DNA from: Sedimenticola sp.
Lineage (GTDB): Bacteria > Pseudomonadota > Gammaproteobacteria > Chromatiales > Chromatiaceae
Length of the DNA: 43,456 bases
Assembly: GCA_027068795.1 (NCBI GenBank)
Contig: JAMOMB010000063.1
Location: 1-43,456, forward strand
Reading direction: 5' to 3'
Under the pieces are notes generated by a model that did no database searches, was not told the DNA's origin, and saw only the letters and a program-made list of their open reading frames with translations. This document shows positions 40,932-43,306 of the stretch, piece after piece. Numbering within the stretch: the stretch's first letter is position 1; every line of letters begins with the position of its first letter. The translations under genes and the position numbers were made by a program.

Positions 40932-42047
40932 TCACTGCCGCAGAAGGATCATCAGCATGCGTCTCAGGGGTTCGGCTGCGCCCCACAGAAGCTGATCGCC
41001 CACGGTGAAGGCGGACAGATATTCACCGCCCATATTCATCTTGCGCAGGCGCCCCACAGGAACTTCCAGGGTGCCCGTGACCTTTGCCGGCGTCAGTTCC
41101 CGGGCAGTGATGTCACGCTCATTGGGAACCACTCTGGACCAGGGATTGGCCTCATCCAGCATGGCTTCGATCTCGTCCAGGGGCAGGTCTTTCTTGAGCT
41201 TGATGGTCAGCGCCTGGGAGTGGCTGCGCATGGCGCCGATGCGTACGCACAGGCCGTCGATAGGCACGGCATTGTCGGAACGGCCCAGGATCTTGTTGGT
41301 TTCCACCTGTCCCTTCCACTCCTCCTTGCTCTGGCCGTTGTCCAGCTTCACGTCGATCCAGGGAATCAGGCTGCCCGCCAGGGGCACGCCGAACTGCTCC
41401 GTGGGGAAGGCACCACTGCGCATGGTTTCCGTGACCTTGCGGTCGATGTCCAGGATGGCGGATGCGGGGTCGGTCAGCAGGTCGGCCACGGCATCTTCCA
41501 GGGCGCCCATCTGGGACAGGAGTTCGCGCATGTTGCGCGCCCCGGCGCCGGAGGCGGCCTGGTAGGTCATGGCGCTCATCCATTCCACCAGGTCGTTCTG
41601 GAACAGGCCGCCCAGGCCCATGAGCATGAGGCTGACGGTGCAGTTGCCGCCAATGAAATCCTTCACGCCATTGGCGATGGCGTCCTGGATGACGTTCATG
41701 TTCACCGGATCCAGGACGATGACCGTGTGATCGGCCATGCGCAGGGTGGAGGCCGCGTCGATCCAGTAGCCGTCCCAGCCGCTGGCGCGCAGGCCGGCGA
41801 ACACCTGCTTGGTGTAATCGCCCCCCTGGCAGGTGACGATGACCTCCATCTTCTTCAGTTCCTCGATGTCCGTGGCATCCTTCAGCAGGGGAATGTCCTT
41901 GCCGATGTCCGGCCCCTGCTGCCCGGCCTGGGAGGTGGTGAAGAACACCGGCTCCCCGATGGCATCGAAATCGTTTTCCTCGCGCATGCGCTGCATGAGG
42001 ACGGAACCCACCATGCCGCGCCAGCCTACGAAACCTACTCTTTTCAT
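40932..42047 (-). CDS. asd: Aspartate-semialdehyde dehydrogenase
   Basis: [53 protein letters not shown]. Conserved start at 42047; in-frame ATGs also at 42053 and 42083. Confidence 0.96.
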
Positions 42048-42073
42048 GTTCATGCTCTCGATTTGTTTGCGGG

Positions 42074-42096
42074 TCGCGGCCATGGGCCGCTCCTAC
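42074..42096 (-). repeat. REP-like element copy 1
   Basis: Minus strand GTAGGAGCGGCCCATGGCCGCGA; GTAG head plus hairpin GCGGCC/GGCCGC. Confidence 0.75.
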
Positions 42097-42113
42097 AGTT
42101 ATGTGTCTCCTAA

Positions 42114-42149
42114 CAGGATGTTGAAAAAAGCATGTTTTTCAACATCCTG
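42114..42149. repeat. Perfect 15-bp palindrome with 6-nt loop
   Basis: CAGGATGTTGAAAAA (42114-42128), AGCATG, TTTTTCAACATCCTG (42135-42149). Confidence 0.9.
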
Positions 42150-42157
42150 CCAATTCC

Positions 42158-42180
42158 GTAGGAGCGCCCCATGGGCGCGA
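42158..42180 (+). repeat. REP-like element copy 2
   Basis: GTAGGAGCGCCCCATGGGCGCGA, inverted relative to copy 1 with two paired substitutions that preserve the stem. Confidence 0.75.
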
Positions 42181-42205: not shown

Positions 42206-43279
42206 TTACAAGGCAGAGACCACGGCGTCGCCCATTTCCTCGGTGCTCACTTCCTTCATGCCCTCGGCCATGATGTCCGGGGTGCGCAGGCCATCATCCA
42301 GCACCCGGTTCACCGCCGCCTCGATGCGATCCGCCATGCCCGCCTCATCCAGGCTGTAACGCAGCATCATGGCCACGGACAGGATGGTGGCCAGGGGATT
42401 GGCCCTGTTCTGGCCGGCGATGTCCGGGGCGGAGCCGTGGATGGGCTCGTACATGCCCTTGCCATTCTCATCCAGGGAGGCGGAAGGCAGCATGCCGATG
42501 GAGCCTGTGAGCATGGCGGCGCAGTCGGACAGGATGTCGCCGAACATGTTGGTGGTGACCATGACATCGAACTGTTTGGGCGCCCGCACCAGCTGCATGG
42601 CGGCGTTGTCCACGTACATGTGGCTCAGTTCCACGTCGCTGTAGTCCTTTTCCATGACCCGGGTGGCCACCTCCCGCCACAGCTCGGTGCATTCCAGCAC
42701 GTTGGCCTTGTCCACGGAGCACACCCGGCTGTCCCGCTTGCGGGCGATGTCGCCGGCCACGCGCACGATGCGCTCGATTTCGCTTTCCCGGTACACCAGG
42801 GTGTTGAAGCCTTCCTTCTCGCCGTTGTCCAGCTCGCGCACGCCCCGGGGCTGGCCGAAATAGATGCCGCCGGTGAGCTCGCGCACGATCATGATGTCCA
42901 GGCCGGACACCACTTCCGCCTTCAGGGTGGAAGCCTCCGCCAGCTGGGGGTAGAGAATGGCCGGGCGCAGGTTGGCGAACAGGTTCAGGCCCGCGCGCAG
43001 GCCCAGCAGGCCCTTCTCCGGGCGAATGGAGATATCCAGGGACTCCCACTTGTAGCCGCCCACGGCGCCCAGGAGAATGGCGTCGGCTTCCCTTGCCAGA
43101 TCCATGGTGGCGTCCGGCAGGGGGCCGCCGGTGGCGTCGATGGCGGCACCGCCCACCAGGGCTTCGTCCAGCTCGATGTCCAGGCCCTCGCCGGCCAGCT
43201 TGTCCAGCACCTTCACGGCCTGGTTGACGATTTCCGGGCCGATGCCGTCGCCGGGAAGAATCAGAATTTTCTTGCTCAT
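42206..43279 (-). CDS. leuB: 3-isopropylmalate dehydrogenase
   Basis: [65 protein letters not shown]. Confidence 0.98.
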
Positions 43280-43306
43280 GTCAGTTTCCAAAGATAAATG
43301 ATTTGA

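Follow-up and report, generated by a model that had tools for sequence, protein, structure and literature searches.

Short repeats with a 5' GTAG tag have been described together with their dimers and the transposases that accompany them, as GTAG REPs and REP heterodimers (PMC3733652), REPINs (PMC3116915) and RAYTs (PMC2817692). The locus considered here has in common with these systems the GTAG tag, an element length of about 23 nt, a short GC stem closed by a 3-nt loop, inverted dimers of unlike stems and a RAYT gene flanked by REPs, the last being, according to two of these reports, a defining trait of a REP/RAYT system (PMC2817692; PMC3733652). A preference for heterodimers, including dimers with unlike stems, has also been described already and called unexplained (PMC3733652). 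Unlike the known GTAG REP systems, however, this genome holds few copies (18 in an 84%-complete genome), and the spacer of the dimer studied here is broken by an unrelated hairpin.

Multi-hairpin composite repeats of the BOX, ERIC/IRU and RU type are intergenic, modular and hairpin-forming, as is the MITE to which this hairpin leads. The same MITE resembles those of IS5-family ISs in its imperfect TIRs, held in common with an IS5-family element (NF033581), in its 4-bp YTAR duplication and in its dispersed copies with no coding capacity seen. It differs from them in that five hairpins in a row make up the full unit, and the first of them is also found solo (34-37 bp) with partial target duplications. 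At the level of titles and abstracts, there was no obvious description of Sedimenticola transposons or IS5-type MITEs of such kind.

The REP pair between leuB and asd

The window, i.e. the whole stretch of 43,456 nucleotides that was analysed, belongs to a fragmentary, Sedimenticola-like assembly (2.29 Mb in 238 contigs, 84% complete). Its leuB-asd gap and the adjoining genes comprise the following features.

40932 to 42047, minus strand: asd, aspartate-semialdehyde dehydrogenase (TIGR01745), the gene downstream of the gap
42074 to 42096, minus strand: GTAG REP with the G-type stem GCGGCC-CAT-GGCCGC, the type of 10 of the 18 genome copies
42110 to 42113, no strand: CTAA, the left 4-bp flank of the palindrome, read directly and fitting the YTAR target consensus
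42114 to 42149, no strand: 36-bp palindrome, recognised by its sequence as HP1, the terminal hairpin of a five-hairpin MITE of 161 bp with CAGGNTGTTGAAAAA terminal repeats, here standing solo
42150 to 42153, no strand: CCAA, the right 4-bp flank, equal to the left one in three of four letters
42158 to 42180, plus strand: GTAG REP with the C-type stem GCGCCC-CAT-GGGCGC, the type of 7 of the 18 genome copies
42206 to 43291, minus strand: leuB, 3-isopropylmalate dehydrogenase (TIGR00169), the gene upstream of the gap, with the coordinates of the longest ORF

The leuB stop codon and the asd ATG are 158 bp apart, in agreement with the gap of about 160 bp given in an earlier note on this DNA, which had described two 23-nt REP-like elements facing each other around a perfect palindrome. 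Both elements are present and could be identified as GTAG REPs, each with a GTAG tag at the 5' end and, next to it, a short palindrome (the range of the class being about 20-40 nt) that folds into a stem of 6 bp closed by a CAT loop; the REP pattern matched twice in the window as against no match in 100 shuffles. They differ solely at positions 10 and 18 of 23, and these do pair with each other in the stem, as had been claimed. Being inverted, separated by a short spacer and joined in a single hairpin, the two REPs have the organization of a REPIN or REP dimer. The facing arrangement reported earlier is retained, though not its wording as 'head to head', since the GTAG ends point inward, an orientation termed 'tail-tail' in PMC3733652. 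At 42047-42083, the loop ATG of the REP at 42074-42096 was seen to lie in frame with asd, where it would lengthen the protein by 12 residues relative to the homologous start, and an automatic caller may pick this wrong start.

The motif is not confined to this locus, and two of the checks proposed earlier, a genome-wide count and a search for a RAYT gene, both turned out in its favour. A strict pattern (exact matching of a loose consensus) detected 12 copies in the same genome and a search allowing up to 3 mismatches detected 18, while a reversed control pattern detected 0. Eighteen is below the more than 100 copies usual for such repeats, the genome being 84% complete, and extragenic position was checked for some of the copies. 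The genome contains a single Y1 transposase gene, on contig C198, whose product has the HVH motif and matches the NCBIfam model for REP-associated tyrosine transposases (NF047646, 147 bits against a cut-off of 80), and REPs flank this gene on both sides. Three direct tandem REPs with a 66-bp period were also observed beside the RAYT gene, reaching the contig end (L019 2183-2337). In short, the REP part of the earlier reading is right and ordinary.

The difference between the two stems had been regarded as a compensatory change indicating selection on structure. Across the 18 copies, pair 10/18 is G-C in 10, C-G in 7 and mismatched (A, G) in one, and amongst distinct REP sequences it is CG in 5, GC in 5 and other in 1; it is the only REP stem pair altered on both sides. 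The stem is thus kept in other copies, as that claim would have it, but the idea of selection at this locus was not borne out, as the changes are those of two standing, pre-existing REP subtypes and not of a local compensatory event. Five of the six close inverted REP pairs in the genome combine a G-type with a C-type member (contigs C63, C86, C107, C145, where one member is degenerate, and C202), the same-subtype pair being C198:5132/5177; with such small numbers this figure is suggestive only.

The central palindrome and a 161-bp MITE family

The perfect palindrome that had been placed between the REPs was likewise found, its 15-bp arms matching perfectly around a loop of 6 nt (fold z = -8.4). 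Its exact sequence occurs once in the genome; on leaving position 5 free, a second copy without adjoining REP appears in the same genome (C19:16661-16695), along with copies in five same-genus genomes and in one other genus of the family, and with a looser core of the palindrome one relative yields 23 copies. When 84,980 genomes were scanned for the ATCCTG form, nearly all matches fell in MAGs titled Sedimenticola; the exception is one Spirochaetales contig (L081 4768-4804) where the same palindrome has a 7-nt loop, owing to either horizontal transfer or mis-binning. In 24 HP1 hairpins, pair 5 is AU in 7, CG in 7, UA in 7 and GC in 3 and is never broken, in a search for perfect palindromes that favours intact copies though position 5 was left free; the outer ends of full units, unlike the hairpins, show A with G at this pair in 20 of 30 cases. 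No match to the palindrome was found in Rfam above the gathering score, plasmids and phages gave only weak partial matches, all in plasmids, and a literature search by words of its sequence gave unrelated matches only.

When one half-site was searched, many copies were recovered as an inverted pair spanning a constant 161 bp. These units have CAGGNTGTTGAAAAA-type ends and lie between direct repeats of TTAA, CTAA, TTAG or CTAG, with exact 4-bp direct repeats in 21 of 30 full MITEs, shuffled flanks giving 6.8 on average and 14 at most. In an alignment of ten units five hairpins are formed, 12 of their pairs being altered on both sides, and the first of these hairpins (HP1) is the palindrome of the window. 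Judged by sequence, the palindrome belongs, as HP1, to a distinct MITE family found across the genus and is not a part of the REP unit.

A complete relative (G007) carries two elements with a DUF772 transposase, 1303 bp each, that start with CAGGGTGTTGAAAAA and end with TTTTCAACGGCCTG and show 4-bp duplications, TTAA and TTAG, of the same type as the MITE; a third DUF772 copy has an identical left end, while its right end could not be delimited. The transposase belongs to the IS5 family (NF033581, 272 bits), and the IS ends, CAGGGTGTTGAAAA and TTTTCAACGGCCTG, closely match the terminal repeats of the MITE, imperfectly at the right end. This 1303-bp IS5-family element is a candidate for mobilising the MITE. 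Its two copies in G007, which look intact, are located at L165 1276-2578 and L166 394-1696. In the 84%-complete genome of the window, neither a full 161-bp MITE nor a DUF772 transposase was found, so that HP1 can at most be an insertion that is old or was made in trans; the two solo hairpins of this genome look like relics or in-trans insertions.

There is moderate evidence that HP1 may transpose alone. Seventeen solo hairpins lacking the remainder of the MITE were chosen by hand from a survey of duplications, and p values were obtained by shuffling the flanks. Exact duplications were observed in 5 of them (shuffle fraction 0.013), and flanks equal at 3 or more of the 4 letters in 11 (shuffle fraction 0.036). 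The CTAA and CCAA flanks of the window copy are a probable decayed target duplication.

Probable stacked insertions and the alternatives

The reading we favour, with a probability of roughly 0.88, is that two unrelated mobile repeats, the REP pair and the MITE hairpin HP1, are stacked in a permissive leuB-asd gap. The inverted GTAG REPs would constitute a REPIN-like heterodimer of a G-type and a C-type member, dispersed by the RAYT of contig C198 (HUH, IS200-like), and the hairpin located between them would be the terminal one of the Sedimenticola MITE family. As both ends of HP1 equal the terminal repeat of the full MITE, the hairpin could be mobilised by itself through a DDE transposase of the IS5 type, with duplication of a 4-bp YTAR target; the flanks in the window are CTAA and CCAA. 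Without HP1 and one of its 4-bp flanks the spacer would measure 21 bp, and since other GTAG-inward pairs of the same genome have spacers of 10, 21 and 29 bp, HP1 was probably inserted between REPs that were already paired. In the leuB-asd transcript the arms would join in a single hairpin, which might slow decay of leuB RNA from its 3' end or reduce read-through into asd, as a by-product rather than a conserved control.

The same gap was compared in eight same-genus genomes (G001, G002 and G004-G009), and in none of the eight does it contain the three-part element of the window. An inverted GTAGGTCGGGCTTCAGCCCGAC-like pair occupies gaps of 92-93 bp in G001 and G004 and of 207-224 bp in G002 and G008; a different palindrome is present in G006 and G009, another repeat-like stretch in G005, and G007 has a gap of 72 bp with no REP. 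Because the occupants differ among relatives, a permissive site fits better than a conserved element. Upstream of asd in relatives (L149 and L157), the GTAG of another REP class was seen to overlap the leuB stop codon (CTGTAGGTCGGG).

Selected intercistronic control, in which the long hairpin would set leuB versus asd mRNA levels, appears improbable but survives best amongst the alternatives. The RNA of the gap is predicted to form one very stable hairpin (-78.7 kcal/mol, z = -8.7; -57.0 kcal/mol without HP1 and one 4-bp flank), effects of REP and BIME sequences on mRNA decay are known elsewhere, and the inverted GTAG-REP-like pairs of G001, G004, G002 and G008, though different from that of the window, occupy the same gap. 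Such control is harder to reconcile with the short gap of G007, which lacks repeats of this kind, with the other palindromes of G006 and G009, and with the gap itself, where no terminator or promoter was called. A conserved regulatory role has no support.

Still less probable is that the palindrome is a host site, either for protein binding or as a bidirectional terminator, unrelated to transposition. Its perfect stem, the covariation at one pair and the many solo copies whose inspected flanks place them right at a stop codon or its reverse complement would suit such a site. However, the same sequence forms either end of a repeat of 161 bp that shows target duplications, and YTAR targets such as TTAA and CTAG share letters with stop codons, which accounts for the stop-codon bias of the solo copies. 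An intrinsic terminator was considered and rejected, as none was called and the palindrome lacks a GC stem with a U run, its A/T run lying within the stem.

Very unlikely is a single BIME-like composite of REP, palindrome and REP moving as a unit through the RAYT, as the earlier note had proposed: its three parts make a symmetrical set that folds into one hairpin, and structured spacers in REP dimers have been described (PMC3733652), but the palindrome belongs to a different family, bearing the TIR of DDE transposons, its exact form occurs once in the genome with no REP beside the related copy on C19, and the spacers of the other REP pairs (10-29 bp) are unrelated to it. The recurrence of the three-part arrangement, which the note had suggested checking, did not materialise, with one occurrence in the genome, and no copy of this palindrome was found near a GTAGGAGCG REP at any other compared locus. 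The whole composite as a recurring unit was rejected, since the mosaic is not repeated at other loci.

A possible modular core and its implications

Outside the window, HP2-HP4, the middle three hairpins of the 161-bp MITE, were also seen in further genomes, including some from another family, where wholly different hairpins form the ends (L199; L214 1501-1588; L215 881-1002; L213 1501-1607; L200 278-359; compare L068 1501-1661). Changes on both sides are shown by 14 of 33 core pairs. At least some of the core-bearing elements, when read by eye, seem to have 4-bp flanking repeats. The core had no match in Rfam above the gathering score, in plasmids or in phages. A modular MITE core with interchangeable ends is possible on the basis of these sequences, and it may tentatively be extended, at odds that we consider to be clearly against it, to a proposal where the palindrome is an end module of an undescribed MITE superfamily, with a core of HP2-HP4, swappable ends matched to ISs and a 35-bp end hairpin that transposes itself.

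The window itself is of little import, other than as a clean case of REP and MITE insertions piling up in a permissive gap, and it cautions that a symmetrical cluster of repeats need not be a single designed element. The MITE family to which the palindrome belongs may be of greater importance. Its three-hairpin core with different ends would serve as a natural experiment on the switching of transposase by non-autonomous transposons, and the minimum size of a unit mobilised by a DDE transposase could be tested on the solo 35-bp hairpins. If the proposal holds true, lineages of Gammaproteobacteria would pair a conserved HP2-HP4 core with ends fitted to different IS transposases, the 35-bp end hairpin would be among the smallest mobile units known, and the conservation of the core despite the swapping of its ends would suggest a role for it as an RNA or DNA structure.
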